From positions 124,001 through 188,000 of the forward strand of contig NZ_JHWJ01000007.1 of assembly GCF_000687555.1 (NCBI RefSeq): DNA of 64,000 nt. The letters run 5' to 3'. The translations under genes and the position numbers were made by a program. The notes beneath the pieces are model-generated. The model saw nothing but the letters and a program-made list of their open reading frames with translations, was not told where the DNA came from and made no database searches. Shown in pieces: positions 1,883 through 29,624 of this stretch. Position 1 is the first letter of the stretch, and each line of letters begins with the position of its first letter. Source of the stretch: [Clostridium] aerotolerans DSM 5434. GTDB taxonomy: Bacteria > Bacillota > Clostridia > Lachnospirales > Lachnospiraceae.

Positions 1883-1903
1883 ATTAAACTCCTGTCAGAA
1901 TTT

Positions 1904-2929
1904 CTAATTTTCATAGATTTCATCGAAAATACCGCCATCAGCAAAAAATTTCTCATATGCCGCATCCCAGCCTCCAAAATCATCAATGGTACATAGTTTC
2001 ATGTTCAAATCGAATTTACTGGAAAATTCCTTTAACACCGACTGATTGGATGGTCTGTAGCCATACTCACCAATGATTTTCTGGGCTTCATCGGTATAAA
2101 GATAATCCAGATATTCTTTGGCTGCTTCCTGGGTATTATTTTTATCCGCATTTTCGTCTACAATGGCTACACTGGGCTGAGCTAAGATGCTCATACTTGG
2201 TGATACGATTTCAAATTTATCTGGATATTCTTCTGTTGCCATGATCGCTTCATTTTCCCAGGCAATCAGCACATCTCCCTGGCCGTTTTCCACAAAAGTG
2301 GTAGTGGCACCTCTTGCTCCCGGGTCCATAACAGTGACATTGGAATAAAGCTTAGACATAAAATTCTTCATCTGAGTTTCATCGCCGTTAAACTGTTTGC
2401 CGGCATAATACCAGGCACCCAGAAAGTTCCAGCATGCCCCTCCACTGCTTTTGGGATCGGGAGTGATAACAGATACTCCTTCCCGGATGAGATCATCCCA
2501 ATCCTTAATTCCTTTTTCATTTCCCTTTCTTACCAGGAAAACAATGGTTGAAGTATAGGGAGCAGAATTATCCTTAAACTCCTTGATCCAGTCTGGCTCA
2601 ATCAACCCCGCTTTTTCAATCAGGGTAATATCATGGGCCAAAGCCAGGGTCACCACATCGGCTCCGGCTCCCTCAATGACGGATCTGGCCTGACTGCCTG
2701 AACCTCCATGGGATTGTATTACCTCGATCTCCTTACCTGTTTTGTTTTTATAATAGGCCTCAAATTTTTCATTATAGGCCATATAAAATTCTCTGGTGGG
2801 GTCGTAGGAAGCGTTGGTGATGGTTAGTTTGCCATCGGTTGCTGTGGTCGTTGTCTTTGCGCACCCTGACAGGATAAGAGCCGTGCCAAAGAGCAGGAAT
2901 GTAAGCCTTAAGTTTTTTGTCTTTTTCAT
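1904..2929 (-). CDS. sbp: Sulfate-binding lipoprotein
   Basis: A 341-residue extracellular solute-binding protein. The N-terminus is a lipoprotein signal peptide with lipobox LSGC (Cys23), so it should be anchored to the outer face of the membrane. The mature part has Sbp/CysP features: [11 protein letters not shown] near the start, [10 protein letters not shown] around residues 93-102, and [12 protein letters not shown] in the middle, where Sbp family members contact the sulfate dianion through backbone and Ser/Gly groups. It is the first gene of the sbp-cysT-cysW-cysA operon, and the GGAGGG site before the ATG is strong. The operon is probably controlled by sulfur supply, but no operator could be proved. 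Confidence 0.93.
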
Positions 2930-3340
2930 AATCCCTCCTTATGCATATAAAGATGTAGTTTTTTTAATCAGCTTCATGCATCAACCAGAATGGTTATTAT
3001 TGGCTCATAGAAATGATATACGATTGCCCCCAACATATATACATATTGTTTATATATGTTTATAGGGTATAAAAATATGCCTATTAAGGCATTATTCATT
3101 TACTATATTCATTATTCATGATTGTTATGTATTTCTATAAGCAATTATAGAATCTGATTGTTACTATTATGCGGATTATATGCATATAAGTCAAGACATT
3201 TAACAAAAAAAATAATATTTTTTTATCTAATATCCTATTTTTATTCCATTTTTATTATTTTTCTTTCTTTTATGCTGGGCATTCCACACATCCCTATGTT
3301 CCTGGAATATGATATAGCAAAAATAATAACAGGTTTTTTT
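2930..3340. other. AT-rich divergent intergenic region (sbp / sodA)
   Basis: This 411-bp, strongly AT-rich gap lies between the sulfate operon (leftward) and sodA (rightward), so both promoters should be here. Visible structure: a short palindrome TGCCTATTAAGGCA at 3078-3091 next to AT-rich candidate -10 boxes (for example TATAAA read leftward near 3065-3073), and repeated CATTATTCAT-like words at 3090-3118. The palindrome could be an operator for a sulfur-responsive repressor, but this is only a guess. No S-box or T-box core sequence was recognised. Confidence 0.4.
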
Positions 3341-15980: not shown

Positions 15981-16029
15981 ATTGCATGTATTTAATATAA
16001 AACCGGTACTAAGAAAGGAAAGGAAGCTT

Positions 16030-17511
16030 ATGCAGGATTTTATCAAAATTCATTCCGAAGATAACGTAGCCGTTGCCTTAAAGCCGCTTGCAGCCGGTAC
16101 TTTCATTGAGACAGGCGATACGGCAGTGACCCTTCTGGAAGATATCCCTCAGGGCCACAAATTTGCCCTTACCGATATACCTGCCGGCTCATCCGTCATG
16201 AAATACGGCTGTGCCATCGGCGCAGCAAAGGAGAATATTGCGGCAGGGGCCTGGATTCACACACACAATTTAAAAACAGGGTTAGGGGATTTACTTACTT
16301 ACAGTTACGACAAACAGGATAGCAGTCTTTCAAAGACAGAGGACCGCACCTTTATGGGATACAGACGGCCTGACGGTAAAGTAGGCGTACGAAACGAAAT
16401 CTGGATTATCCCAACGGTTGGTTGTGTCAATAAGATTGCTTCTGCCATTGAACGTGCATCTCAAAAATACATTACCGGATCCATTGACGAAGTAGCGGCA
16501 TTCCCACACCCATACGGTTGTTCCCAGATGGGCGACGATCAGGAATACACCAGAACCATTTTAGCAGATTTAATCAACCACCCCAATGCAGGAGGCGTTC
16601 TTGTCCTTGGACTTGGCTGTGAAAACAGCAACGTTCAGGAGTTAAAGCGCTACATCGGGGAATATGATGAGCGCAGGGTCAAATTCCTGGTGGCTCAGGA
16701 ATCTGAGGATGAGATGGAGGATTCCATGGCTCTCATCGAAGAATTAGCGGAGTATGCAGGTACGTTCCACAGAGAACCAATCAGCTGCAGCGAGCTGATC
16801 ATCGGCATGAAGTGCGGCGGCTCTGACGGTCTGTCTGGAATTACAGCCAATCCAACGGTAGGCGCTTTCTCAGATATGCTGGTATCTAAGGGCGGCACCA
16901 CTATTCTTACTGAGGTTCCGGAGATGTTCGGAGCGGAAACACTTCTGATGAATCGTTGTAAAGATGAGGAAACCTTTGAAAAAACAGTAGAGCTCATCAA
17001 CGACTTTAAAAACTACTTTACCAGCCACAACCAGACCATTTACGAAAATCCGTCACCTGGTAATAAAAAAGGCGGCATTTCCACACTGGAGGATAAATCC
17101 TTAGGATGCGTCCAGAAGTCAGGCAGCGCTGAAGTGGTGGATGTATTAAAATACGGAGAGCCAGTACAGACAAAGGGCTTAAACTTATTAAGCGCTCCTG
17201 GCAATGACCTGGTTGCTTCTACGGCTCTTGCTGCTTCCGGAGCTCATATTGTTCTCTTTACCACAGGCCGCGGAACTCCATTTGCATGTCCGGTACCTAC
17301 GATGAAGATTGCTACCAACACAGCCCTGAGCGAGAAAAAGAGTAACTGGATCGATTTCAACTGCGGTGTTTTAGTAGAAGACACCGATATGGATACCCTT
17401 AAGAACCAGTTTTTTGATTTTGTAATTGAAGTTGCTTCCGGCAAGAAGGTAAAATCCGAGGAAGCAGGCTTCCACGATATGGCCATCTTCAAACGGGGCG
17501 TGACTTTATAA
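16030..17511 (+). CDS. uxaA: Altronate dehydratase
   Basis: A 493-residue enzyme that dehydrates D-altronate to 2-keto-3-deoxygluconate in the galacturonate pathway. The N-terminal SAF domain (to about residue 95: NVAVALKPLAAGTFIE, IPAGSSVMKYG) is followed by the UxaA/GarD catalytic part: TFMGYRRPDGKVGVRNEIWI, FPHPYGCSQMGDD, LGLGCENSNV and GMKCGGSDGLSGITANP, with Cys and His residues thought to bind the metal. The ATG at 16030 follows AAAGGAAAGGAAG; sixteen upstream codons are rejected. It is followed 35 nt later by uxaB and preceded by a LacI-type operator. Confidence 0.95.
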   Translation: MQDFIKIHSEDNVAVALKPLAAGTFIETGDTAVTLLEDIPQGHKFALTDIPAGSSVMKYGCAIGAAKENIAAGAWIHTHNLKTGLGDLLTYSYDKQDSSLSKTEDRTFMGYRRPDGKVGVRNEIWIIPTVGCVNKIASAIERASQKYITGSIDEVAAFPHPYGCSQMGDDQEYTRTILADLINHPNAGGVLVLGLGCENSNVQELKRYIGEYDERRVKFLVAQESEDEMEDSMALIEELAEYAGTFHREPISCSELIIGMKCGGSDGLSGITANPTVGAFSDMLVSKGGTTILTEVPEMFGAETLLMNRCKDEETFEKTVELINDFKNYFTSHNQTIYENPSPGNKKGGISTLEDKSLGCVQKSGSAEVVDVLKYGEPVQTKGLNLLSAPGNDLVASTALAASGAHIVLFTTGRGTPFACPVPTMKIATNTALSEKKSNWIDFNCGVLVEDTDMDTLKNQFFDFVIEVASGKKVKSEEAGFHDMAIFKRGVTL

Positions 17512-17546
17512 TACTTCATGGATACAGGAAAAGGAGATTAATTCGA

Positions 17547-19034
17547 ATGGAAAAGTTATGTTATGCAACACTGGAAAAGCAGGGTTATGACGGTTATCTT
17601 TTAAAGGATGCACCTGAGCGTGTTCTGCAGTTTGGCGAAGGAAACTTTTTAAGGGCTTTCGTGGACTATTTTGTTGATATGCTCAACGAGAGAACTGGTT
17701 TTAATTCCAAAGTCGTTTTATGCCAGCCCATCGCCCCAGGTCTTGCAGATATGATTAACGAGCAGGAGGGACTTTATACCCTCTTCCTCCGCGGATTTGA
17801 AAACGGAAAGAAAGTAAATGACAAAAGAGTCATTTCCTGCGTCAGCAGATGCTTAAACCCTTATAAGGAGTATGATGAGGTTCTTGCCTGCGCAGAAAAC
17901 CCGGACCTTCGCTACATTGCCTGCAACACAACAGAAGCAGGAATTGCATACGATCCTTCCTGTCAGTTTACCGATGTACCAGCTGACAGCTATCCTGGAA
18001 AACTGACTCAGTTCTTATATAAAAGATTTGAGAAGTTCGGTAAGGAAGCCGGCAAAGGTTTTGTTATTCTCTCCTGTGAGCTGATTGACAACAACGGAAA
18101 AGAGCTTGAGAAATGCGTATTGCAGTATGCAAAGCAGTGGAACTTAGGAGAAGAATTTATCAGCTGGATCAAGGCTGAGAACATCTTCTGCTCTACTCTG
18201 GTAGACCGTATCGTAACCGGATATCCAAGAAATGAAGCTTCCTCCATCTGCGAAGAATTAGGCTATCAGGATAATCTGATCAATACTGGTGAAGTCTTTG
18301 GCTTCTGGGTCATTGAAGGTCCTGAATCTTTAAAGAAAGAGCTTCCTTTTGAAGAAGCCGGCCTTCCGGTTATTATCTGCGATGACCACAAGCCATACAA
18401 GCAGAGAAAGGTACGTATCTTAAACGGTGCTCATACTTCCTTTGTATTAGGTGCATACCTTGCTGGTCAGGATATTGTCCGAGACTGTATGGATGACGAA
18501 GTGATCTGCGGATTTATGAACAAGACTATCTATGATGAAATCATTCCTACTCTGACACTGCCAAAGGAAGAATTATTGAGCTTTGCTGGTTCCGTCACAG
18601 AACGTTTTAAGAATCCATTCATCGATCATGCTCTGCTTGCCATTTCCTTAAACTCCACCTCCAAGTGGAAAGCAAGAGTTATGCCTTCCTTTAAAGGATA
18701 TGTAGAGAAAACCGGGGAACTGCCAAAATGCATCACAGCTTCCTTTGCATTCTACATCGCCTTCTATCACGGCATGAACTTAACCGAGGAGGGCCTGGTT
18801 GCTTCCCGACCAGCAGGCGACGAATATACGGTAAAAGACGATAAGCCAGTCCTTCAGTTCTTCTATGATCATAAAGATGATGATGCAGAAACTCTGGCTC
18901 ATGCCGTTTGCAGCAATACCGATTTCTGGGATGAGGATTTAAGCAAGATCCCTGGATTTGAAACAGCTGTGGCAGGTTACTTAAAAGCCATTGAAGAAAA
19001 GGGTGCTTATGCAGTCATGAAAGACTGTCAGTAA
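17547..19034 (+). CDS. uxaB: Tagaturonate reductase (altronate oxidoreductase)
   Basis: A 495-residue long-chain mannitol dehydrogenase-type enzyme that reduces D-tagaturonate to D-altronate with NADH. Landmarks: RVLQFGEGNFLRAFVDYFVD at the N-terminal Rossmann nucleotide site, the CNTTEAGIAYD strand, STLVDRIVTGYPR, and the catalytic C-terminal helix region with KVRILNGAHTSFVLGAYLAG (Lys, Asn and His residues). It is downstream of uxaA in the same operon. The uxaC isomerase and kdgK/kdgA genes that complete the pathway are not in this window. Confidence 0.95.
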   Translation: MEKLCYATLEKQGYDGYLLKDAPERVLQFGEGNFLRAFVDYFVDMLNERTGFNSKVVLCQPIAPGLADMINEQEGLYTLFLRGFENGKKVNDKRVISCVSRCLNPYKEYDEVLACAENPDLRYIACNTTEAGIAYDPSCQFTDVPADSYPGKLTQFLYKRFEKFGKEAGKGFVILSCELIDNNGKELEKCVLQYAKQWNLGEEFISWIKAENIFCSTLVDRIVTGYPRNEASSICEELGYQDNLINTGEVFGFWVIEGPESLKKELPFEEAGLPVIICDDHKPYKQRKVRILNGAHTSFVLGAYLAGQDIVRDCMDDEVICGFMNKTIYDEIIPTLTLPKEELLSFAGSVTERFKNPFIDHALLAISLNSTSKWKARVMPSFKGYVEKTGELPKCITASFAFYIAFYHGMNLTEEGLVASRPAGDEYTVKDDKPVLQFFYDHKDDDAETLAHAVCSNTDFWDEDLSKIPGFETAVAGYLKAIEEKGAYAVMKDCQ

Positions 19035-19086: not shown

Positions 19087-19614
19087 TTAAATCAATTTTT
19101 CATATAGTTTAAACCAATCAAGTCCAGCTTCTTCTAATCCAAGACTTACCGTATCAATATACTCAAAACCACACTTTTCATAAAGATGAATGGCTGGAAC
19201 ATTCTCTGTGTAAACATCTAGCCGTAAGGATTCTGTTCCCTCTTCTATTCCCAGTTCTTCTGCATATTTTAACAGTTTAAATCCAATTCCCTGATTGAAA
19301 TAACCTGGATGAACGGTAAATGTATAAACTACGAGAACCTTATCATAGGATAAATCTTTCTTCCACCTGACGCTTAAATAAGCTTCTTCCGGTTTGTGTC
19401 TTAAGATCATGGAGCCAACGATAACGCCTTCATTTATAGCAACGTGTAAATTGCCCTCTTCGATTCCCCGCATGGCATCATTGCGCGTGGGATAGACTCC
19501 CTTTTTCCAACCACAATAATTAATCCCATTTTCCATATGGTCATTGATTGCATCATACAAAATTTCCAGATCATCCACATCACGCCTTATTCCTTTTCGT
19601 ATGCTTATGCTCAT
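19087..19614 (-). CDS. GNAT-family N-acetyltransferase
   Basis: A 175-residue GNAT acetyltransferase. VYTFTVHPGYFNQGIGFKLL gives the beta4 strand and the acetyl-CoA pyrophosphate loop (Asn-Gln-Gly-Ile-Gly), and LDVYTENVPAIHLYEKCGF is the canonical C-terminal motif. The substrate cannot be inferred. It is convergent with uxaB and apparently monocistronic; AGGAGG precedes the ATG at 19614. Confidence 0.88.
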   Translation of the reverse strand: MSISIRKGIRRDVDDLEILYDAINDHMENGINYCGWKKGVYPTRNDAMRGIEEGNLHVAINEGVIVGSMILRHKPEEAYLSVRWKKDLSYDKVLVVYTFTVHPGYFNQGIGFKLLKYAEELGIEEGTESLRLDVYTENVPAIHLYEKCGFEYIDTVSLGLEEAGLDWFKLYEKLI

Positions 19615-19761
19615 TATTTCCTCCTCCTGTACTTGATTTTGCTTATTATACCAAAGGAATCTATATGAAACAATATTTCTTAACAGGTATCTTGTATAAT
19701 TCTTCCTATGCTAATATACTATTTATAAAATAACTTCATGGCTCATAAAGGAGAATACGAA

Positions 19762-21282
19762 ATGAATTTCTTTAAAAATGCCCCTGAGAACGGGAAAGGT
19801 ATCCAGGACCATTATTCTGCCATGGCTCCATTTCTAATCCGTATGAGCATCATGTTTTCATTTTTACTGGGAGCCTCCTTAATCGGATATAGCTTTAAAG
19901 CACTCCAATTACAGGAAACCAATATTGCCATCGTTTATCTGCTGGCTGTCCTTTTAACGGCACGGTATACGGGAGGATACCTCTTTGGCTTCTGGGTCTC
20001 TCTCTTTGCTGCCTTTATCTTTAATTTTTTATTTATGGAGCCTTATTACACCTTTTCAGTTAATACACCAAACTATATTATTACCTTTACCATTATGGCA
20101 ATCACCGCCTTTATTACCAGTACCTTAACGACCCATGCCAAGCAAAATGCCCTTCGGGCCAGAGAACGGGAGGAGGAAGCGAAAGCACTCTATTCTCTTA
20201 CCAACCGTTTGACTGATGCGGCAGACATTCCTGAAATTGCAGACATTGCAGCAAGTGCGGTCTGTGAGATGCTAAACTGCAGGGTCGGCTGTGTCTGCTT
20301 TGATGAATCCGGGAAACCGGACGAAGCCTTTTCCCGGCAGTTTTCTCCAAAGAATGGGACGCCGGAGGAGGCAGCCTCTCAGAAATCCTTTTTTGACTGG
20401 CTCATATCCGGAAGGGACTCTACCTTAGGTGTTATAAGAATTCCCATGGATGATGCAAAGCGCATGACTCCTACCCAGACACGGCTGCTTCAGGGAATGA
20501 TTGAAAACACGGCACTTGCCATGGACCGGTTTCATGCATCAGAGCAGCGGCGTAAGACAAATGAGGCCATCGTCCAGGAGCGTTACCGGGGCAATCTGCT
20601 TCAGGCTATCTCTCACGACCTTCGCACTCCTCTTACAGGAATTATGGGCACAGCAGAAATGCTTCTTACTATGACAGGGAAGGACGACAACCGGTATGAT
20701 CTGATCAAGGAAATATACGGAGACGCGGACTGGCTCCATTCTCTGGTGGAAAACATCCTAAGCCTGACCCGCCTCCATGAAGGAAAATTAGTTCTTCATA
20801 AGCAGGAGGAAGCTGGGGAGGAGGTCATAGGTGCTGCGGTACACCACGTCCTGCACCTTCACCCGGAGCACGACATATGGGTCACTGCTCCCGAGGAACT
20901 GCTTCTCATTCCCATGGACGCCAAATTAATCCGGCAGGTTCTGATCAATCTTTTGGACAATGCCATCAAGCATACAAAGCCGGAACAGGAAATCCAGGTC
21001 TCCTTAAAAAAGGAGAACAGCGGTAATTTTGCTGTTTTCTCTGTCTGCGATCATGGAGAAGGCATTGATGCATCAGATATTTCTAATATCTTTCAAATGT
21101 TTTATACCTCTGCTTCCAGGCGAAACGACGTTAAGCTGGGAGTTGGACTGGGGCTGACCATCTGCGAAGCCATTGTAAAAGCTCACGGCGGGGAAATTAA
21201 AGCAAGGAACAGGGAGAATGGACCGGGCGCAGAATTTATTTTCACCCTTCCTTTAAAGGAGAATTTTCATGAATCTAAATAA
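19762..21282 (+). CDS. KdpD-like sensor histidine kinase lacking the KdpD N-terminal domains
   Basis: A 506-residue kinase. Residues about 25-125 form four closely spaced transmembrane helices of the KdpD type (DUF4118: NIAIVYLLAVLLTARYTGGY, FNFLFMEPYYTF). A GAF-like segment follows (about 155-265), then the dimerisation helix with phospho-acceptor His285 in SHDLRTPL and an ATPase domain with N box (RQVLINLLDNAIKH), GEGID and GVGLGLTICE. The roughly 400-residue N-terminal KdpD/USP region of classical KdpD is absent. Start is the ATG at 19762, 9 nt after GGAG. It overlaps the regulator gene by 14 nt. It should sense a cation or osmotic signal and control the downstream ATPase operon. Confidence 0.9.
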   Translation: MNFFKNAPENGKGIQDHYSAMAPFLIRMSIMFSFLLGASLIGYSFKALQLQETNIAIVYLLAVLLTARYTGGYLFGFWVSLFAAFIFNFLFMEPYYTFSVNTPNYIITFTIMAITAFITSTLTTHAKQNALRAREREEEAKALYSLTNRLTDAADIPEIADIAASAVCEMLNCRVGCVCFDESGKPDEAFSRQFSPKNGTPEEAASQKSFFDWLISGRDSTLGVIRIPMDDAKRMTPTQTRLLQGMIENTALAMDRFHASEQRRKTNEAIVQERYRGNLLQAISHDLRTPLTGIMGTAEMLLTMTGKDDNRYDLIKEIYGDADWLHSLVENILSLTRLHEGKLVLHKQEEAGEEVIGAAVHHVLHLHPEHDIWVTAPEELLLIPMDAKLIRQVLINLLDNAIKHTKPEQEIQVSLKKENSGNFAVFSVCDHGEGIDASDISNIFQMFYTSASRRNDVKLGVGLGLTICEAIVKAHGGEIKARNRENGPGAEFIFTLPLKENFHESK

Positions 21283-21970
21283 CAGAAAAATCCTGATTGT
21301 TGAAGACGACAAGCAAATAAGAAATTTCATCAGCTATTCCCTTGATCAGGAAGGGTTTGCCTATGTCACATCAGGCGCCGGCCAGGGGGCTCTCAGTATC
21401 CTTCTATCGGATCAAATTGATATCATGCTCCTGGATCTTGGACTGCCGGATCTTGACGGCATGGAAGTCATTAAGAAGGTAAGGGAATGGTCAGAGCTTC
21501 CCATTATCGTGGTTTCTGCCAGAGATCAGGACAAGGAAAAGGCGGCGGCACTTGACTTGGGGGCCGACGATTATCTCACAAAGCCATTTTCCGCCACAGA
21601 GCTTCTTGCACGGATTCGAGTGGCACTACGGCACTTAAACCAGCACAATGGACCGGATAAGGCCCAGAACCACCTTCAGGCAGGTGACCTTCAAATTGAT
21701 TTTGAAAAAAGACTGGTCTATCTGGAAAACCAGGAGGTACATGTGACTCCTATGGAATACAGTCTTTTGACCCTGTTCTTTAAAAACATGGGTAAGGTAC
21801 TGACCACAAGGCAGATACTGACTGAGATCTGGGGGATTCACTACGGCAATGACACCCAGGCACTCCGGGCCCTTATGGCCGGCCTCAGGCGGAAAATCGA
21901 AAAAAATCCAGCCAAACCTCGCTACATTATAACGGAAATAGGGGTGGGGTACCGGCTGGTGGATGAGTAG
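21269..21970 (+). CDS. KdpE-like response regulator (OmpR/PhoB family)
   Basis: A 233-residue response regulator. The receiver domain has the acidic pocket EDD near residue 12, phospho-acceptor Asp56 (MLLDLGLPD) and Lys in DYLTKPF. The C-terminal winged helix (about 135-230) is OmpR-type: VHVTPMEYSLLTLFFKNMGK, TTRQILTEIWG and the closing RYIITEIGVGYRLV. It most resembles KdpE. It overlaps the kinase gene by 14 nt and is followed by a strong terminator. OmpR-family proteins bind tandem direct repeats, and such an array lies immediately downstream in front of the P-type ATPase gene. Confidence 0.93.
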   Translation: MNLNNRKILIVEDDKQIRNFISYSLDQEGFAYVTSGAGQGALSILLSDQIDIMLLDLGLPDLDGMEVIKKVREWSELPIIVVSARDQDKEKAAALDLGADDYLTKPFSATELLARIRVALRHLNQHNGPDKAQNHLQAGDLQIDFEKRLVYLENQEVHVTPMEYSLLTLFFKNMGKVLTTRQILTEIWGIHYGNDTQALRALMAGLRRKIEKNPAKPRYIITEIGVGYRLVDE

Positions 21971-21990
21971 ACAGACAGCAACAATCTATC

Positions 21991-22035
21991 CAGGGATAAG
22001 AAGTTCTTTATGACTTCTTATCCCTGTTTTTCTTT
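21991..22035 (+). terminator. Strong intrinsic terminator after the kinase/regulator pair
   Basis: A perfect 14-bp stem CAGGGATAAGAAGT (21991-22004) / ACTTCTTATCCCTG (22013-22026) with an 8-nt loop is followed by TTTTTCTTT. It separates the two-component genes from the ATPase operon, so the latter needs its own promoter. Confidence 0.95.
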
Positions 22036-22106
22036 CTCATACGATTCTTATACCGTTCTCACACCATTCTCACACCCCCTCTTCCATTCTCACACTCCAC
22101 TCACAA
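22034..22106 (+). repeat. Array of 11-bp direct repeats (TTCTCACAC), probable response-regulator sites
   Basis: Units start at 22034 (TTCTCATAC), 22045 (TTCTTATAC), 22056 (TTCTCACAC), 22067 (TTCTCACAC), 22087 (TTCTCACAC) and a weaker one at 22098 (CACTCACAA). The first four are spaced exactly 11 bp, one helical turn; the fifth comes after 20 bp and the sixth 11 bp later. Same-face tandem repeats ending at the -35 region are what OmpR/PhoB-type activators use. The regulator encoded just upstream is the obvious candidate. Confidence 0.75.
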
Positions 22107-22115
22107 ATTAAGAGC

Positions 22116-22121
22116 TATGAT
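22116..22121 (+). promoter_or_regulatory. -10 box of the ATPase operon, without a -35 box
   Basis: TATGAT at 22116-22121 is a good -10 box. The sequence 17 bp upstream (around 22093-22098) has no -35 match and instead carries the last repeats of the 11-bp array. This is the layout of an activator-dependent promoter. The leader to the start codon at 22218 is about 90 nt and has a small A/U-rich hairpin at 22154-22173. Confidence 0.6.
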
Positions 22122-22217
22122 AGAAATTACCAAATCGATCTGGCAAAGCAATGAAAAAGCAGACGGCTTTTTTCCCAAGCTGTCAATCTACGAAAAAGGA
22201 TAGGAAGATAGATCGCT

Positions 22218-25058
22218 ATGAGTAAAACATTAAAGCAAGCATTTTCTCCCGATGTGTTATCCGATTTACAAAAACTGCCCGTAAAAGAGGTGTATTCTGC
22301 TTTAAACACCGGAGAAAAAGGGCTGTTAAAATCAGAGGTCACCACGCGCATCCACCAGTTTGGAAAAAATGCGCTCCAGGAGAAGAAGGGTCAGCCACTT
22401 ATCTTTAAATTTCTCTCTAACTTTACCCACTTTATGGCCATTCTCCTCTGGTGTGCAGGTTTAGTAGGCTTCATTGCCCAGCTGCCTGAACTTGGAATTG
22501 CAATCTGGATGGTAAACATCATAAACGGTGCGTTCAGTTTCTGGCAGGAATTCCGGGCTGGCAAAGCAACCGAGGCTTTAAAGAAGCTCCTCCCAGATTA
22601 TGCCCGTGTGGTCCGAGACGGGGAAGAACAAAAAATACTGGCAGAGGATCTGGTCCCTGGTGATCTCATCCTCCTTGGAGAAGGGGACCGCATTTCAGCC
22701 GATGCCCGTCTGGTGGAGGACAATGATTTAAGCGTGAATCAATCCACCCTGACCGGAGAATCCCACCCGGTCCACAAATCTAAGGATGAGGTAATACGGG
22801 ATGACCTCTCCCGTTCCGAACAGCCTAATATGATTTTTGCCGGTACCAACGTAGCGGCAGGAACCTGTAAGGCAATTGTTTATGCGACTGGCATGAATAC
22901 AGAGTTTGGCAAAATTGCGGGCCTTACCCAGACGCTGAAAGAAGAATTAAGTCCTCTTCAAAAAGAGATGAATAAGCTGACCAGGACTGTTTCCATCCTT
23001 GCCATCAGCATTGGCGTAGTATTTTTCCTGCTGTCCATTGTTCTTGTTGGTACAGAATTAGCCGTGGCATTTATTTTCGCCATGGGTATGATCGTCGCTT
23101 TTATCCCGGAGGGACTCCTTCCCACAGTTACCTTATCCCTTGCCATGGGTGTTCAGCGAATGGCAAAAAGAAATGCCCTTATAAAGCGCCTTTCTGCTGT
23201 GGAGACACTGGGCTGTACCACTGTGATCTGTACAGATAAGACAGGAACTCTGACTCAAAATGAGATGACCGTAAGCAATATTTGGATTGGGGGAAAATCC
23301 CTTGATGTAACCGGAGTAGGCTATGACCCTTCGGAAGGCAAAATTCTAGAAAACGGGCATCCTGTGGCATCAGAAACACCTGATTTAAGCAGGCTCTTAG
23401 GTGCAGCGGCCCTTTGCTGCAACGCTCATCTCGTGCCCCCAGGCCCGGAATCTTCCCGTTTTACTGTACTTGGAGACCCCACAGAGGCTGCTCTTCTGGT
23501 GGCTGCTCAAAAGTATGGCTTAACACCAGAGGATTTAAATAAGAAAGAACTCCGCCTTCGTGAGCTACCATTTGACTCCGTAAGAAAACGTATGACCACG
23601 ATTCACCAGGTCTCAAACGACCGGATTGCCTTTACAAAAGGCGCGCCAAAGGAAGTTCTTGAGCTATGCACCCACATAAAGGTAAATGGAACCTCCATGG
23701 AAATGGACGGAAAGACCCGTGCCGAAATCATGGAAATCAATGACCGTTATGCAAGAAATGGCCTCAGAGTCCTTGCTGTTGCATCCAGAAATCTAAAGGG
23801 CATTACCGGGATTCCTCAAAGCTTAAGCCAATATACCCCGGAGCTCATTGAGCAGGAGCTTACCTTTTTAGGCCTCATTGCCATGGTAGATCCTCCCCGT
23901 CCTGAGGTATCCGAAGCAGTTAAGAAATGCCACCGGGCAGGCATCCGGATTATTATGATTACCGGTGACTACGGCCTCACGGCAGAAAGCATTGCCCGCC
24001 GAATCGGAATCATAAAAGGAGAGCATCCAAGAATTATTACTGGAATCGAACTTGGGAAAATGCAGCCGGAAGAACTGAAAAATGCCCTGGAGGGTGAAGT
24101 TCTCTTTGCCAGAGTGGCACCGGAACAAAAGCTGCAGGTGGTAACTGCACTTCAGGAGATGAAGCATATCGTTGCGGTTACCGGTGACGGAGTTAACGAT
24201 TCACCCGCTCTGAAAAAAGCAGATATCGGCGTTGCCATGGGGCTTTCCGGCACTGATGTAGCAAAAGAAGCTGCTGACATGATCCTGACCGATGATAACT
24301 TTGCTTCCATTGTCAACGCAGTGGAGGAAGGGCGTGCGGTCTACAATAATATCCGTAAATTTGCAGTGTACATTTTCAACAGCAATATGGCTGAGGCAGT
24401 GCCTATGATTTTTTATCTTTTCTCCAGAGGTACGATTCCACTTCCCCTGACCATTATGCAGGTTCTTTGTATTGACCTTGGAACCGATATGGTACCGGCC
24501 ATGGGTCTTGGTGCAGAATCACCGGAGCCTGGAATTATGGATATTCCACCCCGTTCACAAAAAGAGTCTCTGCTGACTAAAAAACTGCTGTCACGTGCCC
24601 TCTTATGGTACGGCTCCATGGAAGCAATCGCCTGTATGGCTGCTTTCTTTTACCTAAACTGGCTGAACGGCTGGCCTGGTACTCCCCTTCCCGGTACAGG
24701 AACGATTTACCGGATGGCGACCACCATGACATTTGCAGCCATTGTACTGGCTCAGGTAGGCGCTGTATTTGCCTGCCGGACCGAGCGGGTATCCATCTTT
24801 AAAACAGGATTTCATACCAACAAGCTGATTCTTGTAGGAATCGTGGTAGAGCTGATCCTTTTAAGCCTCATCACCTACCTTCCGTTCCTCCACAATCTTT
24901 TTAATACGGCTCCACTGGGCTTAAAGGAATGGGCATTCTTAATCTGGATTCCATTTGCGGTTCTGCTCATTGATGAAATCAGGAAATTCTTCCTGCGAAA
25001 TCTTAGACCCAGAAAGAGTAAAGGAAATTATGAGAAGAAGGAGATGTATAATTCATGA
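22218..25058 (+). CDS. P-type cation-transporting ATPase, type IIC (Na,K-ATPase)-like
   Basis: A 946-residue P-type ATPase. It has an N-terminal cation-ATPase domain, the A domain TGES loop (TLTGESHPV), M4 with PEGLLP (297-302), the phosphorylation site DKTGT (Asp340), the nucleotide domain KGAPKE, and TGDGVNDSPALKKADIG. The membrane ligands follow the Na,K-ATPase pattern: Glu298 in M4, Asn723 and Glu726 in M5 (NSNMAEAVP), Asp753 and Asp757 in M6 (CIDLGTDMVPA). The C-terminus (CRTERVSIF, LIDEIRKFFLR) also resembles type IIC. Where Na,K-ATPase has QWAD in M8, this protein has QVGA (846-849). Likely a Na+ or K+ pump; Ca2+ transport is less likely. Coupled by ATGA overlap to the next gene. Confidence 0.88.
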   Translation: MSKTLKQAFSPDVLSDLQKLPVKEVYSALNTGEKGLLKSEVTTRIHQFGKNALQEKKGQPLIFKFLSNFTHFMAILLWCAGLVGFIAQLPELGIAIWMVNIINGAFSFWQEFRAGKATEALKKLLPDYARVVRDGEEQKILAEDLVPGDLILLGEGDRISADARLVEDNDLSVNQSTLTGESHPVHKSKDEVIRDDLSRSEQPNMIFAGTNVAAGTCKAIVYATGMNTEFGKIAGLTQTLKEELSPLQKEMNKLTRTVSILAISIGVVFFLLSIVLVGTELAVAFIFAMGMIVAFIPEGLLPTVTLSLAMGVQRMAKRNALIKRLSAVETLGCTTVICTDKTGTLTQNEMTVSNIWIGGKSLDVTGVGYDPSEGKILENGHPVASETPDLSRLLGAAALCCNAHLVPPGPESSRFTVLGDPTEAALLVAAQKYGLTPEDLNKKELRLRELPFDSVRKRMTTIHQVSNDRIAFTKGAPKEVLELCTHIKVNGTSMEMDGKTRAEIMEINDRYARNGLRVLAVASRNLKGITGIPQSLSQYTPELIEQELTFLGLIAMVDPPRPEVSEAVKKCHRAGIRIIMITGDYGLTAESIARRIGIIKGEHPRIITGIELGKMQPEELKNALEGEVLFARVAPEQKLQVVTALQEMKHIVAVTGDGVNDSPALKKADIGVAMGLSGTDVAKEAADMILTDDNFASIVNAVEEGRAVYNNIRKFAVYIFNSNMAEAVPMIFYLFSRGTIPLPLTIMQVLCIDLGTDMVPAMGLGAESPEPGIMDIPPRSQKESLLTKKLLSRALLWYGSMEAIACMAAFFYLNWLNGWPGTPLPGTGTIYRMATTMTFAAIVLAQVGAVFACRTERVSIFKTGFHTNKLILVGIVVELILLSLITYLPFLHNLFNTAPLGLKEWAFLIWIPFAVLLIDEIRKFFLRNLRPRKSKGNYEKKEMYNS

Positions 25059-25720
25059 GAATGATTATCGTAGGCTGCGGACGAAATGGTTCCGGCCTGG
25101 CACTGGCATTAAGTAAAATGGGCCACAACGTGACCGTTATAGATTCCAACCCAGGATCATTTAAAGAGCTTGGCCCTAATTTTCGGGGAGAGACCATAGA
25201 GGGAATTGGGTTTGACCAGGAGGTCCTCTTAAAGGCACAGATCAAAAAGACCGATGCACTGGCTGCCTTTACCTCCAGTGATGAATCCAATGCAGTGATT
25301 GCACGAATCTCCAAAGAAATTTATCATGTACCAAAGGTGGTCGCCCGTCTTCATGACAGGGAAAAGGCCGAGATTTATAAGCGCCTGGGCGTACAGACCT
25401 TATCCTCTACTGCCTGGGGAATTCAAAGGGCTGTTGACCTGCTTTGCTACTCTCCTCTTCATACCATATTCAGCATGGGAAATGGAGATGTGGAGCTTGT
25501 GGAAATTGAGACCACGCCTCTCATGGAAGGCCATAAGGCCAGTGAACTCTCCATCCCCGGGGAAGTGAAAATTGTATCCATTACAAGGGGAAACAAGACC
25601 ATACTGCCCACAACTGGTACTGCACTGCAAAAAGGAGATATTCTCTATGTAGCTGCCGCCGTATCCTCCTTTGACCGGTTAAAACGTTTATTTGGAATTT
25701 CCAATGGAAAGGGGATATGA
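25055..25720 (+). CDS. TrkA-like NAD-binding (RCK) protein, copy 1
   Basis: A 221-residue protein with one N-terminal TrkA/RCK Rossmann domain (MRMIIVGCGRNGSGLALALS, with Asp at the end of beta2 in TVIDSNPGS) and a C-terminal TrkA-C domain from about residue 140 (VELVEIETTPLMEG, then GDILYVAA). RCK proteins bind NAD(H), ATP/ADP or c-di-AMP and gate potassium transporters. No TrkH/KtrB pore gene is present nearby; the gene overlaps the P-type ATPase stop codon by 4 nt, so it is most likely made together with the pump. Confidence 0.9.
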   Translation: MRMIIVGCGRNGSGLALALSKMGHNVTVIDSNPGSFKELGPNFRGETIEGIGFDQEVLLKAQIKKTDALAAFTSSDESNAVIARISKEIYHVPKVVARLHDREKAEIYKRLGVQTLSSTAWGIQRAVDLLCYSPLHTIFSMGNGDVELVEIETTPLMEGHKASELSIPGEVKIVSITRGNKTILPTTGTALQKGDILYVAAAVSSFDRLKRLFGISNGKGI

Positions 25721-26391
25721 AGATGAAGGTCATAATTATTGGGGGCGGCCAGGTTGGCGCATATTTAGCTTCCCTTCTATTGGAACGGGGGCATGAAATT
25801 AAAATCATTGATGTAAGAGAAACCAGAATACCGGTCTTAAAGCGGGACCTTCCTGAGGAATGTGTCATCTGCGGAAATGGAGCCGAGCCAAGGGTCTTAG
25901 AGGCCGCTGGGATCAATGAGGCCGATGTGGTGGCTGCCGTGACCGGCTCAGATGAAACAAACCTGGTGGTAGCCACTCTATCCCGCATGGAGTATGGGGT
26001 ACGCCGTGTGGTAGGAAGGGTAAATAATCCTAAAAATGCATGGCTCTTTCAGGGAATCATGGGAGTCGATGCAGCTCTTAACCAGGCAGATCTAATGGCT
26101 CGTCTGGTGGCAGAGGAAATGACTATGGGCGATATGATGACCCTTTTAAAGCTACACGGCGGTCAGTACTCTCTGGTAGAGCGTATGGTGGATCCGGCAT
26201 CTCCAGCCGCTGGGAAAACGGTAAAGGAGATAAATCTGCCTCTGGAATGTGTTCTGGTCGCTATCCTTCGAAAGGATCAGCTTCTTTTACCCAGAGGAAA
26301 CACTCATCTGATTGCTGGTGACAAGATAGTTGCAATCACCCATAACTCTTATTTAGACCATCTGGCCGAGGCACTGGGATCAGGGAAATAG
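25717..26391 (+). CDS. TrkA-like NAD-binding (RCK) protein, copy 2
   Basis: A 224-residue second TrkA-like protein: KVIIIGGGQVGAYLASLLLE with IIDVRE after beta2, VVAAVTGSDETNLVVATLS, and a C-terminal TrkA-C domain (VDPASPAAGKTVKEINLP to GDKIVAI). It overlaps the first copy by 4 nt (ATGA). The two are clearly diverged and each has one Rossmann plus one TrkA-C unit, so together they could form a hetero-oligomeric ring, equivalent to the four-domain TrkA of enteric bacteria. Probably a regulatory subunit for cation transport. Confidence 0.9.
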   Translation: MKMKVIIIGGGQVGAYLASLLLERGHEIKIIDVRETRIPVLKRDLPEECVICGNGAEPRVLEAAGINEADVVAAVTGSDETNLVVATLSRMEYGVRRVVGRVNNPKNAWLFQGIMGVDAALNQADLMARLVAEEMTMGDMMTLLKLHGGQYSLVERMVDPASPAAGKTVKEINLPLECVLVAILRKDQLLLPRGNTHLIAGDKIVAITHNSYLDHLAEALGSGK

Positions 26392-26423
26392 TCTTCTGCC
26401 AGGGAACGGAGGTGCTTAGCCGC

Positions 26424-27167
26424 ATGATATTTAAAGAGTTTGGAACCGCCAGTGCACCGACCATAGTCCTTCTCCATGAAGGCGGCCTTTCCTGGTGGTC
26501 TCTGATGGAAACCATTGAACTGCTAAAGAGGGATTACCACATCGTAGCTCCCATTATAGACGGACACGGAGAAGATGCGCAGACTACTTTTTTAAGTATC
26601 CAGGATTCTGCCCGTAAACTGATCCAGTATATTGATGAAAATAACAACGGTTCCGTCTTTGCCATGGGCGGTTCCACTCTGGGGGCACAGATAGTCGTTG
26701 AGGCGCTGTCTCAAAGGACTGATATTGCCAGGTATGCCATCATAGAAAGTCCTTGGGTGATACCATCTAAATCTCTGACATTTTTAACAGTTTTGGCAGG
26801 CAGACTCGCGTACAGACTTTATCATCGGAAATGGTTTGCTAAAATCAGAGCAAGAGAATTATCTATAAAGAAACAACATTTTATTCAATACTTCAGCGAC
26901 ACCAGCTCCATGACAAAAGATTCCCTGATAAACATCGCAGTGAATCACACTTCTTATGCGGTCTCAGATGAATTAAAAAACACCAGAGCCAATGTAATGA
27001 TTATCATAGGTTCCAGGGAAATTAAGCGTATGGACCCTTCCATCCATAAGCTGATTGATATGATACCAGAGACCAAGGTATTTATTGTCCCCGGCATGAA
27101 GCCCGGGGAATTCAGCATGATACACAGTACAGAGTATTATTATCTGCTCAAACGCATCACCGGATAA
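26424..27167 (+). CDS. Alpha/beta hydrolase-fold protein
   Basis: A 247-residue alpha/beta hydrolase. TIVLLHEGGLSWWSLM gives the oxyanion-hole region, and the nucleophile elbow reads AMGGSTLGAQIVVE, with Ser in Gly-Gly-Ser-Thr-Leu-Gly rather than the common Gly-x-Ser-x-Gly order. IIIGSREIKRMDPS and the C-terminal His in MIHSTEYYYL would supply the remaining triad. The substrate is unknown. It lies 33 nt after the second TrkA gene and is probably the last gene of the cation operon. ATG at 26424 is preferred (GGAGG 11 nt upstream); a GTG at 26412 is also possible. Confidence 0.78.
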   Translation: MIFKEFGTASAPTIVLLHEGGLSWWSLMETIELLKRDYHIVAPIIDGHGEDAQTTFLSIQDSARKLIQYIDENNNGSVFAMGGSTLGAQIVVEALSQRTDIARYAIIESPWVIPSKSLTFLTVLAGRLAYRLYHRKWFAKIRARELSIKKQHFIQYFSDTSSMTKDSLINIAVNHTSYAVSDELKNTRANVMIIIGSREIKRMDPSIHKLIDMIPETKVFIVPGMKPGEFSMIHSTEYYYLLKRITG

Positions 27168-27177
27168 CTATATAACC

Positions 27178-27223
27178 AAAACGAGCTTTGAAACCCTGAC
27201 ATACAGGACTTCAAAGCTCGTTT
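27178..27223. terminator. Bidirectional terminator between convergent genes
   Basis: AAACGAGCTTTGAA (27179-27192) and TTCAAAGCTCGTTT (27210-27223) form a perfect 14-bp stem with T-runs on both strands, between the rightward hydrolase gene and the leftward isomerase gene. Confidence 0.88.
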
Positions 27224-27228
27224 CCAGT

Positions 27229-28056
27229 TTATTTATAATCCTCAAGAAACTTCCTGGACCACTCCGCATTATCAGGAGTACTGTCTTCAATGGTCATCTG
27301 GATAAAAGGTTTGTCTTTCTTTACGAAGTTGAGAATGGTATCATACTTCATGGTGCCACTTCCAGGCGCTCCTGAAACAACCTTATCTCCTTCGATAACA
27401 AAGTCTTTCATATGAACCACATCTGTATACTCGCCCAGATCTTTAATAGCTTCTGTAATCACCTCATCATAACGAGCGCTATTTTCTACAGAAAGAAGAT
27501 TTACTGGATCCAAGATGATTCTTAGATTGGGTGAGTTGATTTCCTTTAATACCTTTAACGCCTGTTTGGAGTCATATACAATGTGGCTCCACACTGGTTC
27601 TATGGCCATGATAACACCAAATTTTTCCGCGCATTCTACCACGGGACGAAAATTCTTAATGAAAGTCTGTAAGGATTCCTCTGTATGGCTTTCCGGTACA
27701 AAGCGGTATTCTGCATTAGGTGCCCCGGTTTCCGTACCCACTACGCTGCATCCTAACATGGAGGCAAAACGAAGATGTGCAAAATAACGTTCCTGAATCT
27801 TTTTAAGCTCAACTGGATCAGGATGTGCCAGATTCAGATAACAGCCTAACACTGCAATATCCACATCATACTTGGCAAACAGCTTACGAAGATAGGTAGC
27901 ATAGCCTGGAGTCAATGCAGAGTCGTCTACGGAATGCTCCTTCACCGTTTTGGTTAATGCCAGATGAGCACAGCAAAACCCCTGTTCCTGTGCAATCTTT
28001 AATCGTTCTTCTATTGTGCCTGGTGCTACATCGTGTAACCGGATTCCAATCTGCAT
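27229..28056 (-). CDS. Sugar phosphate isomerase/epimerase-like TIM-barrel protein
   Basis: A 275-residue protein of the xylose isomerase-like TIM-barrel family (AP endonuclease 2 fold). Putative divalent-metal ligands are Glu in IMAIEPVWSHI, Asp and Asn in RIILDPVNLLS, His in DVVHMKDFVI and the final Glu in QMTIEDSTPD. It is the last gene of the pectin ABC transporter operon, 14 nt after the GH28 gene, so it probably isomerises or epimerises a uronate or keto-sugar from pectin breakdown; the exact substrate cannot be set. AAGGAGAAG precedes the ATG. Confidence 0.85.
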   Translation of the reverse strand: MQIGIRLHDVAPGTIEERLKIAQEQGFCCAHLALTKTVKEHSVDDSALTPGYATYLRKLFAKYDVDIAVLGCYLNLAHPDPVELKKIQERYFAHLRFASMLGCSVVGTETGAPNAEYRFVPESHTEESLQTFIKNFRPVVECAEKFGVIMAIEPVWSHIVYDSKQALKVLKEINSPNLRIILDPVNLLSVENSARYDEVITEAIKDLGEYTDVVHMKDFVIEGDKVVSGAPGSGTMKYDTILNFVKKDKPFIQMTIEDSTPDNAEWSRKFLEDYK

Positions 28057-28070
28057 AATTCACTTCTCCT

Positions 28071-29624
28071 TTATTTTACATCATAGTGATCCACATTGGT
28101 CACATCAAACGCTTCCCCAACTTGTCCGGAAATCGAAACCTGATCAAGAATCAACGTTTCAACGTTATTGATTAAGAAACCTTTCTTTGAGCATTCCTCG
28201 ATTCCGCTTAACATGGCTGGTGCACCTTTGTTTGCTTCCTCTGCAAAAGAAACCTCAACATTCTTAAGTTCAATACGCTCAATCTTCTGTTCTGGGAGTC
28301 CGTAAAAGAAGGAAGCAGCCACATGACAATTCTCTGCTTTTATGTTTGTGAAATACAGCCCTTTGATGCTGGGAGTCCGCTCATCAACAGGCAAGGCCTC
28401 GCGAGACTGTACATAATCGGATTTCCCATCTGGATCGCAGAAATAAAAGCTGTTTACCACAAAAGGTGTCATAACATGATCCATGTGGATATGGTCAAAA
28501 TATATTTCGGAAAGCACAGAATCTTTTCCCCGACCTCTTCTCGTCTTAATTCTCAACCCTCTGTCGGTATGGCGGAACAGACAGTATTCCACCCGAATGT
28601 TTTTAACCCCGGCTCCTACTTCACTTCCTACAGTAACCGCACCGTGGCCGTTTTCCATCAGACACTGACGGATCATAATATTCTCAGAAGGTGTTTTATA
28701 CTTTCTTCCCATATAAATCTTTCCGGACTTAATGGCAATACAGTCATCTCCTAAAGAGAAATGAACCCCCAGGATCTCAACATCTTTACAGGATTCTGGA
28801 TCCAATCCGTCTGTATTATGGGAATTGGCAGGATTATTGATGGTTAAATCAATGAACTTCAAATCTTGGCTAAAGTAAGGGTGAAGCACCCATGCCGGAC
28901 TGTCCTTCAAAGAAAATCCCTGTAAGCTTACATTTTTACATCTCTCTAAAAATACCATACGGGGGCGGAAGGCAATCTTCATCTGTCGAACATCGTGCCA
29001 CCAGTTATCAAAATCAGCCTGTCCATTGATCAAACCTCTTCCGTAGATCACAACATCCTCTACATCGATACCAGTAATAATTCCAGCAAACATCGGTAAG
29101 GGGTTGCCCTCCCATGTTCCCAGATTATAATCTTCCTTTTCGTCATAGCTTTCTATGACACCCGGAAATCTTGGGAATTTGTTACGGTCTGTATCTGCCT
29201 GAAGCTCGGCACCTTCGGCAAGCTCTATCTTAATATGGCTCTTTAAGAACAGGCTGGTAATGTGGTAGGTACCTTTTGGAATAAGTACTCTTCCATCTTT
29301 AGGACAAGCCATAATAGCCGCCTGGATAAAGGGAGTATCATCCTGAATGCCATCCCCCTTTGCCCCGATTTCACGAACATTTAAGGTGACAAACTCATAA
29401 TCGGTACGAAAAACTACTTCTGCCTTTTTTCCATCTCTTTCCAAGCAGATATTATAATCCATATCCGGTTTTAAGTCAAATAAAGTAAATACGGTCTTTT
29501 TTGTCTCTCCATGGCTTTCTCCATTTACATAGATCGTCCCAGGAGTATCATATTCATAGATCTGCTCTGTTATGGTTTCAATGGTTGCAGAACGTGCTGT
29601 CTTTAAAGCAACTCTAAGTTTCAT
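28071..29624 (-). CDS. Glycoside hydrolase family 28 (exo-polygalacturonase type)
   Basis: A 517-residue GH28 right-handed beta-helix enzyme acting on galacturonic-acid chains. The four GH28 signatures are present: NTDG (in SHNTDGLDPES), GDD (SLGDDCIAIKSG), GHG (MENGHGAVTVGSE) and RIK (RGLRIKTRRGRG). An N-terminal fibronectin-like part (first about 80 residues, VFRTDYEFVTLNVREIGAKG linking to the helix) precedes it. There is no signal peptide, so it acts in the cytoplasm on imported oligogalacturonides or rhamnogalacturonan fragments, consistent with an exo-acting galacturonidase. It is in the ABC importer operon, after a partial terminator. Confidence 0.92.
   Translation of the reverse strand: MKLRVALKTARSATIETITEQIYEYDTPGTIYVNGESHGETKKTVFTLFDLKPDMDYNICLERDGKKAEVVFRTDYEFVTLNVREIGAKGDGIQDDTPFIQAAIMACPKDGRVLIPKGTYHITSLFLKSHIKIELAEGAELQADTDRNKFPRFPGVIESYDEKEDYNLGTWEGNPLPMFAGIITGIDVEDVVIYGRGLINGQADFDNWWHDVRQMKIAFRPRMVFLERCKNVSLQGFSLKDSPAWVLHPYFSQDLKFIDLTINNPANSHNTDGLDPESCKDVEILGVHFSLGDDCIAIKSGKIYMGRKYKTPSENIMIRQCLMENGHGAVTVGSEVGAGVKNIRVEYCLFRHTDRGLRIKTRRGRGKDSVLSEIYFDHIHMDHVMTPFVVNSFYFCDPDGKSDYVQSREALPVDERTPSIKGLYFTNIKAENCHVAASFFYGLPEQKIERIELKNVEVSFAEEANKGAPAMLSGIEECSKKGFLINNVETLILDQVSISGQVGEAFDVTNVDHYDVK

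Follow-up and report, generated by a model that had tools for sequence, protein, structure and literature searches.

Among described systems, KdpFABC with KdpDE sets a P-type pump beside a two-component pair of the KdpDE family, twin-RCK Trk/Ktr systems encode two adjacent single-RCK proteins beside TrkH, and animal Na,K- and H,K-ATPase alpha subunits share a clade with archaeal P2C pumps. The archaeal P2C ATPases are described as functionally uncharacterised, and their role is posed as a question, in the available text of a 2023 review (PMC10654040); the P-type accessories it names are beta, gamma/FXYD, phospholamban-type and Kdp subunits, and the term 'TrkA' is absent from its main text. On the basis of a missing beta-assembly motif, a 2022 survey suggested, in its available text, that prokaryotic alpha subunits 'exist by themselves' (PMC9609216). 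The present study concerns a 64,000-nt stretch of the [Clostridium] aerotolerans DSM 5434 genome (contig NZ_JHWJ01000007.1, positions 124,001 to 188,000), referred to as a whole as the window, in which the gene of a P-type ATPase is followed by the genes of two single-RCK proteins, TrkA1 and TrkA2, and preceded by a KdpDE-like kinase/regulator pair. Gene order, conservation and phylogeny make it probable that the ATPase, TrkA1 and TrkA2 constitute one transport system, namely a cation pump of the P2C type (type IIC, Na,K-ATPase-like) and an RCK pair dedicated to its control.

Open reading frames of the window, searched against Pfam and NCBIfam, yielded five features on the forward strand at 19762-26391: kinase, regulator, P-type ATPase and two single-RCK genes, all of them as claimed in the preliminary description, including the 4-nt overlaps of the TrkA genes. 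The ATPase gene (22218..25058, +; 946 aa) overlaps that of TrkA1 (25055..25720, +; 221 aa) by 4 nt (ATGA), and the latter overlaps the gene of TrkA2 (25717..26391, +; 224 aa) in the same manner. TrkA1 and TrkA2 are different proteins, each identified by Pfam, by its linkage and by a clade of its own; both carry TrkA_N and TrkA_C above the Pfam cut-offs, as well as the GxGxxG motif and the acidic residue after strand 2 that define RCK membership. In TrkA1, G7, G9 and G12 are present in 18 of 18 aligned rows and Asp30 in at least 90%, and of the 17 TrkA2 rows at least 90% have G9 and G12 and most end strand 2 with an acidic residue.

The ATPase was assigned to the P2C type by profiles, ligands and trees. 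It bears the P-type core motifs TGES (at 179), DKTGT (at 340) and GDGVND (at 656), and its ligand residues are E298 within PEGLL in M4, S722, N723 and E726 in M5, and D753 and D757 in the D-x-x-x-D of M6. Glu298, Asn723/Glu726 and Asp753/Asp757 thus stand where the preliminary description had placed them; its reliance on N-x-x-E in M5 does not, because this motif is common to many Ca2+-type rows and hence not diagnostic. Judging from the alignment, the telling residue for P2C is the first Asp of the M6 motif, equivalent to Asp804 in Na,K-ATPase numbering; it is replaced by Asn in 37 of the 39 other P2 rows, the remaining two being L058, with Asp, and L021, in which the position is unresolved. 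Equivalents of Glu327, Tyr771, Ser775, Asn776, Glu779, Asp804, Thr807, Asp808, Gln923 and Glu954 are all found in the window's pump. The M4, M5 and M6 ligands, together with the Ser775, Gln923, Tyr771 and Glu954 equivalents, are common to this pump, the animal Na,K- and H,K-ATPase alpha subunits and the archaeal P2C pumps.

Unlike Na,K-ATPase proper, the window's pump has Ala849 in place of Asp926 of Na+ site III, the sole replaced ligand in the comparison, so a 3Na:2K stoichiometry is not expected. In the ligand alignment, which omitted eight rows under 700 aa, this column never holds Asp in any aligned P2C-like row, and it is Asn in 29 of 30 archaeal rows, the remaining one being without the region. 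This seems at odds with the available text of PMC10654040, which remarks, with reference to another paper, that archaeal P2C pumps conserve every ion-site residue. A further difference from Na,K-ATPase is the beta-subunit assembly motif SYGQ/E (PMC9609216, available text), which was not found in any of 92 prokaryotic rows, the window's included. As a separate observation, a small subgroup (L036-L039 from genomes G288, G180, G424 and G145, and archaeal L263) has altered M5/M6 ligands, with His-Leu for Ser-Asn and Glu for the second M6 Asp, and its ion may differ; the four bacterial members keep the RCK pair.

Whole-length scores alone would leave some room for a type IIA Ca2+ pump in which a few ligands have been exchanged. 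The NCBIfam model of PMR1-type Ca2+ pumps scores slightly above the IIC model TIGR01106 (Na,H/K alpha subunits), at 681 versus 647 bits, both below cut-off (946, curated, for TIGR01106), and among the 25 NCBIfam models shown only the generic TIGR01494 reaches its cut-off; phmmer gives a near tie between LMCA1 (542 bits) and Na,K-ATPase (539 bits), and the N-terminal part slightly prefers the PMR1 type (288 versus 271 bits). In the C-terminal third, however, IIC leads (276 versus 257 bits), and a C-terminal profile built from nine relatives scores Na,K-ATPase at 168 bits, 34 bits ahead of SPCA1 (134), with SERCA at 128 and LMCA1 at 104. A Ca2+-type relative used as query behaves differently, placing Na,K/H,K-ATPases at 425-458 bits, about 230-270 bits under LMCA1 at 692. 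Two trees set the P2C-like rows, together with human Na,K-ATPase, apart from 15 other P2 rows with supports of 100 and 99, these being quick searches with a single animal sequence on a long branch; in the second, which included 14 of 30 archaeal rows, the animal sequence stands with archaeal rows and most RCK-linked bacterial rows form the neighbouring group. Taken together, profiles, ligands and trees place the ATPase among the P2C pumps of prokaryotes, alongside human Na,K-ATPase and apart from Ca2+ pumps. The type IIA placement, named in the preliminary description as the outcome that would overturn it, was rejected by C-terminal profile scores, ligands and trees alike and is hardly credible.

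Conservation of the ATPase-TrkA1-TrkA2 order was assessed first in a phylum sample of 398 genomes. Eleven of these have an ATPase 49-100% identical to the window's, separated by a clear gap from the rest at no more than 45%. TrkA1 profile matches of 288-323 bits occur in ten genomes, all among the eleven, and adjoin the ATPase in every case; several of the ten share a genus, so that fewer than ten cases are independent, and six of them, including the window's, were among the sequences of the profile (A2), so that their scores are partly in-sample, which does not apply to the absence of further scorers in this range. The eleventh genome, G438, has no RCK gene within 1.5 kb of its ATPase, none evident in a 12-kb stretch and no TrkA1 match genome-wide. 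Among lower ATPase scorers the best 19 were opened (L044-L062) and none shows all P2C ligands; since archaeal-type P2C pumps fall within this lower score range, unopened scorers could include further P2C-like pumps.

A wider contig scan, from which the best 80 named loci were kept, reached Bacillota, Actinomycetota, Chloroflexota, Nitrospirota, methanogens and others. Overall, RCK genes lie downstream on the same strand in 57 of 99 P2C-like loci (54 of 96 distinct ones, L091, L095 and L102 being duplicates of L012, L008 and L010), at a median gap of 13 nt; L029, with a broken ATPase and its downstream side outside the locus, was excluded from the 99. Both RCK genes are present in 56 of the 57 linked loci, the exception (L141) being cut by a contig end. 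By comparison, none of 39 other P2 ATPase loci has RCK genes within about 1.5 kb, one of them (L017) having under 1 kb downstream. Beside the pumps of the best 80 named loci, other protein families have no constant position, save in a few close Collinsella relatives. The ATPase, TrkA1 and TrkA2 genes form a module that is conserved in Bacillota, Chloroflexota and Actinomycetota, in the last mainly among Coriobacteriia. Some Chloroflexota and Clostridia loci also carry a second P-type ATPase gene, after TrkA2 in L131, L134, L107 and L110 or before the ATPase in L066, L067 and L088; where measured, it is about 35-43% identical to the window's ATPase, and it may share the RCK pair.

The two RCK proteins have a traceable ancestry. 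In a tree of 100 RCK units, covering 27 of the 57 linked loci, all 27 pump-linked TrkA1 sequences form one group (support 99) and all 27 TrkA2 sequences another (85), the closest relatives of each group being one partner of the twin RCK pairs encoded beside TrkH; tandem TrkA halves and KtrA stand apart. Both groups stayed whole (98 and 86) when ten further twin units, including the top-scoring TrkH-linked ones, were added. In the phylum sample, TrkA1-like scorers after 288 bits drop to 225 bits and below and are twin RCK pairs; of the ten lower-scoring loci L243-L252, six were opened, and TrkH follows the twin pair in five (L243, L244, L245, L248 and L249) and was not seen in L252. The module therefore shares with twin-RCK Trk/Ktr systems the two RCK lineages, each represented by a single-RCK protein, and the order of their adjoining genes; it differs in its partner, a P-type ATPase upstream of the pair where those systems have TrkH downstream. 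By these trees and gene orders, the pump occupies the place normally taken by a channel, and the simplest history is one change of partner from TrkH to the pump, followed by common inheritance and losses. In an Actinomycetota metagenome-assembled genome (MAG), the module at L132 is preceded by another, divergently oriented twin RCK pair (1620-2975, reverse strand), which groups with the TrkH-linked twins.

With RCK proteins usually partnering channels and carriers, TrkA1 and TrkA2 might instead be co-expressed with the pump while gating a K+ transporter encoded elsewhere, for example Kup, a channel or a carrier of the KimA/APC type; uptake and pumping would then be coordinated without any complex of pump and RCK proteins. 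The window's genome does contain Kup, and in Mycobacterium tuberculosis CeoB/CeoC are described as a Trk system of two TrkA proteins, TrkH being unmentioned in the main text of the source as available (PMC13163235). However, every TrkA1 match of at least 288 bits in the phylum sample adjoins this ATPase, and an unlinked TrkA1 was not found in the 33 genomes searched whole among the 42 with a pairless pump, where the best match is 119.6 bits. Kup does not track the pair either: of 54 module genomes, 28 have Kup matches (25 over cut-off, 20 strong) and 26 have none at E 0.001. We regard this alternative as unlikely.

The same survey bears on the canonical RCK partners. The preliminary description had noted that neither Kdp nor TrkH/KtrB partners accompany the locus, and had held that a trkH or ktrB gene always found beside these TrkA genes in relatives would contradict it. 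No such neighbour was seen; no PF02386 match (TrkH/KtrB) exists in the window's whole genome, which has exactly two TrkA_N proteins, TrkA1 and TrkA2. The Kdp part of the statement holds for the locus and not for the genome, since kdpABC is present on another contig. Across the 54 module genomes, many of them MAGs in which absences are weak, TrkH/KtrB is found in 25 and missing from 29, the window's included; in six, again including the window's, the TrkA_N matches number only two. KdpA is matched in 15, two weak matches (G486 and G489) falling on a TrkH gene and leaving 13.

Several observations weigh against a dedicated pump-RCK system. The pair is missing from 42 of the 99 P2C-like loci (four of which, L080, L142, L137 and L130, have under 1 kb after the ATPase), among them every Lactobacillaceae, Streptococcus, Bifidobacterium and Nitrospirota locus seen. 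It is likewise missing from all 30 archaeal loci opened (three with under 1 kb downstream), in contrast to the window's pump; the pump core can thus work without it. Even the 39 RCK-linked loci among the best 80 named ones are an inflated count, the scan having been seeded with nine sequences that all carry the pair, and the phylum sample is the fairer measure. Mapped on the ATPase tree, the pair appears or disappears ten times among 46 P2C-like rows, which indicates repeated loss or gain. When 42 pumps with the pair were compared with 38 without it (near-duplicates, L084 and L115 omitted), no residue or segment discriminated between them apart from one gap column near residue 602, so that no docking site is suggested. 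The TrkA1 scores of linked and TrkH-linked units nearly touch: 25 linked TrkA1s outside the model score 237-328 bits, and TrkH-linked units reach 172 bits in one set and 225 in L243, so the separation rests on the trees. Moreover, RCK rings normally act on symmetric multimers, and P-type pumps are usually monomeric. Two further observations concern pumps without the pair. In the archaeal loci (L253-L282) the M5/M6 ligands are of the P2C type, a few variants aside, and the flanks examined contain no RCK genes; 120 of 199 Methanothrix-class genomes have an ATPase match at E below 1e-180, not all P2C-like. The streptococcal P2C-like ATPases of L117 (Streptococcus agalactiae), L108 and L125 lack the RCK pair at the locus, and the best TrkA1-profile match there is a frame of roughly 450 codons elsewhere, as expected of a tandem TrkA.

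Alternatively, the RCK proteins could be a soluble nucleotide, redox or K+ sensor that does not bind the pump and controls it by an indirect route such as the two-component system. Both keep their nucleotide-binding motifs and a KdpDE-like pair is at hand in the window, but most module loci have no such two-component genes nearby, whereas RCK genes, when a locus has them, come immediately after the ATPase gene; we consider this improbable. We return to the ATPase, TrkA1 and TrkA2 as one system: the claim of the preliminary description that the TrkA pair gates or senses for the pump is strongly favoured by comparative genomics. TrkA1 and TrkA2 would assemble into an RCK hetero-oligomer with an adenine nucleotide or NAD(H) as ligand; docked on the cytosolic domains of the pump, this assembly would turn it on or off according to energy or ion status, in the way that RCK rings act on TrkH/KtrB. 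With sites I and II kept, the pump may import K+, or an ion like it, against Na+ or H+, and on the best reading it would serve K+/Na+ homeostasis. The fuller proposal, in which a heteromeric RCK ring was taken over from a Trk channel in a single switch from TrkH to the pump, making this the first P-type pump so gated, and was then inherited across phyla, with KdpD/KdpE recruited in some lineages, has in our view about even chances of being right.

The conserved pair gives bacterial P2C pumps a partner and a likely regulatory input, and if the proposal is true, RCK regulation extends from channels and carriers to ATP-driven pumps. The KdpDE-type regulators found nearby in some lineages offer a physiological context in K+/Na+ homeostasis, and the pump-RCK pairing is testable in the laboratory. 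A unit of RCK proteins and a P-type ATPase was not found in the titles and abstract openings of the open-licence papers searched, prior notice elsewhere being possible.

The two-component genes upstream are those of a sensor histidine kinase (19762..21282, +), with the membrane domain DUF4118 (PF13493), HisKA (PF00512) and HATPase (PF02518), and of an OmpR-family, KdpE-like response regulator (21269..21970, +; PF00072 and PF00486) overlapping it by 14 nt. The kinase start at 19762, the one adopted in the preliminary description, fits an AAAGGAG ribosome site, an earlier in-frame ATG lying at 19738. The kinase is 35% identical to residues 414-902 of KdpD from the same genome, and the regulator is 52% identical to the KdpE encoded there, its best NCBIfam model being KdpE (224 bits, under the cut-off of 325). 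In a Pfam search the KdpD N-terminal domain PF02702 was not found in the window kinase, which has DUF4118 only, whereas the genome's own KdpD and the kinase of L063 carry both. By identity and domain content, the pair is a KdpDE paralogue without the KdpD N-terminal sensor region. The locus also departs from KdpFABC in that its pump is P2C and not KdpB, and in that it has no KdpA.

The preliminary description had gone on to propose a Kdp replacement built from unrelated parts. This was not borne out: contig C12 of the same genome encodes KdpA, KdpB, KdpC, a full-length KdpD (905 aa) and KdpE, and Kup is also present, so that the pump is neither a Kdp replacement nor the sole K+ system here. 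Elsewhere, the module might still substitute for kdpFABC under former Kdp regulators. At L063 a full-length KdpD/KdpE pair adjoins it, with no kdpABC in the 16 kb before and no KdpA found in the genome bin; four Atopobiaceae genomes with an upstream KdpDE-type pair have neither KdpA nor TrkH matches; and 20 of the 54 module genomes have neither TrkH/KtrB nor KdpA. Yet the L063 genome is a MAG of unknown completeness and has TrkH, Kup is present in the four Atopobiaceae genomes, and ten of the 20 have a strong Kup match. With kdpABCDE in the window's own genome as well, substitution appears very improbable.

Directly upstream KdpDE-type pairs were observed in the window clade (L004-L006), at L063 and at the four Atopobiaceae loci, of which the two checked (L099 and L118) have DUF4118 kinases. 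The linkage holds for 5 of the best 80 named loci plus the window clade, a low figure that also counts against the proposed system. The association is recurrent, not general; of the four-gene order that the preliminary description proposed to survey, the ATPase-TrkA1-TrkA2 part is conserved and the kinase/regulator pair is linked to it in few lineages.

That all five genes form one cation pump operon, as first supposed, is doubtful. A probable Rho-independent terminator lies between the regulator and ATPase genes (21991..22026, +), comprising a stem with 14-nt perfect arms and 15 pairs followed by the T-rich tail TTTTTCTTT; a like stem occurs in L005 and L006. It is argued from stem length, being the longest of 11 terminator-like stems over 19600-27400, a total barely above the shuffle average of 8.4. 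Beyond it, units of the (G/A)TTCTCACACC type form an array of direct repeats that is in part phased at 11 nt (22045..22095, +). Because the terminator-like stem and then the array precede the ATPase gene, there are probably two transcription units, kinase-regulator and a separate ATPase-TrkA1-TrkA2. The unit TTCTCACAC occurs at 22056, 22067 and 22087 and nowhere else in the window; the array is kept in both 98% relatives (L005/L006), and such repeats were not found in the stretches examined near the modules of L063, L099, L113, L115, L118, L034 and L007, so it looks specific to close relatives of the window. The array is a candidate site at which the regulator may bind the promoter of the pump operon. 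A sigma-70 promoter scan over 19600-27400 returned 11 sites versus 10.4 in shuffles, and with no excess no promoter is claimed. KdpD-family kinases control K+ uptake, and for this reason K+ or ionic stress is a plausible signal; under such stress, K+ limitation for instance, the KdpDE-like pair would act on the TTCTCACAC repeats to activate the pump operon.

Beyond the two 98% relatives, the nearest ATPases belong to an Oscillospiraceae MAG (71% in the tree alignment) and to genome G159 (68%), and six other genomes of the same genus have a 63% version. These identities suggest horizontal transfer of the ATPase gene. Split P2C-like ATPase genes, spread over several open reading frames, were seen in L029 (G023, same genus), L092 and L114 and represent decaying genes or sequencing errors. 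Downstream of TrkA2, an alpha/beta hydrolase gene (26412..27167, +), recognised by weak Pfam matches under cut-off, lies within the interval 19762..27167 and yet is shared, among the loci compared, only with L005/L006, and it is not part of the conserved module. The genes flanking the module at 15982-19034 and 27229-29624 look unrelated to ion transport and resemble, by their sequences, genes of sugar-acid and pectin-type carbohydrate catabolism.

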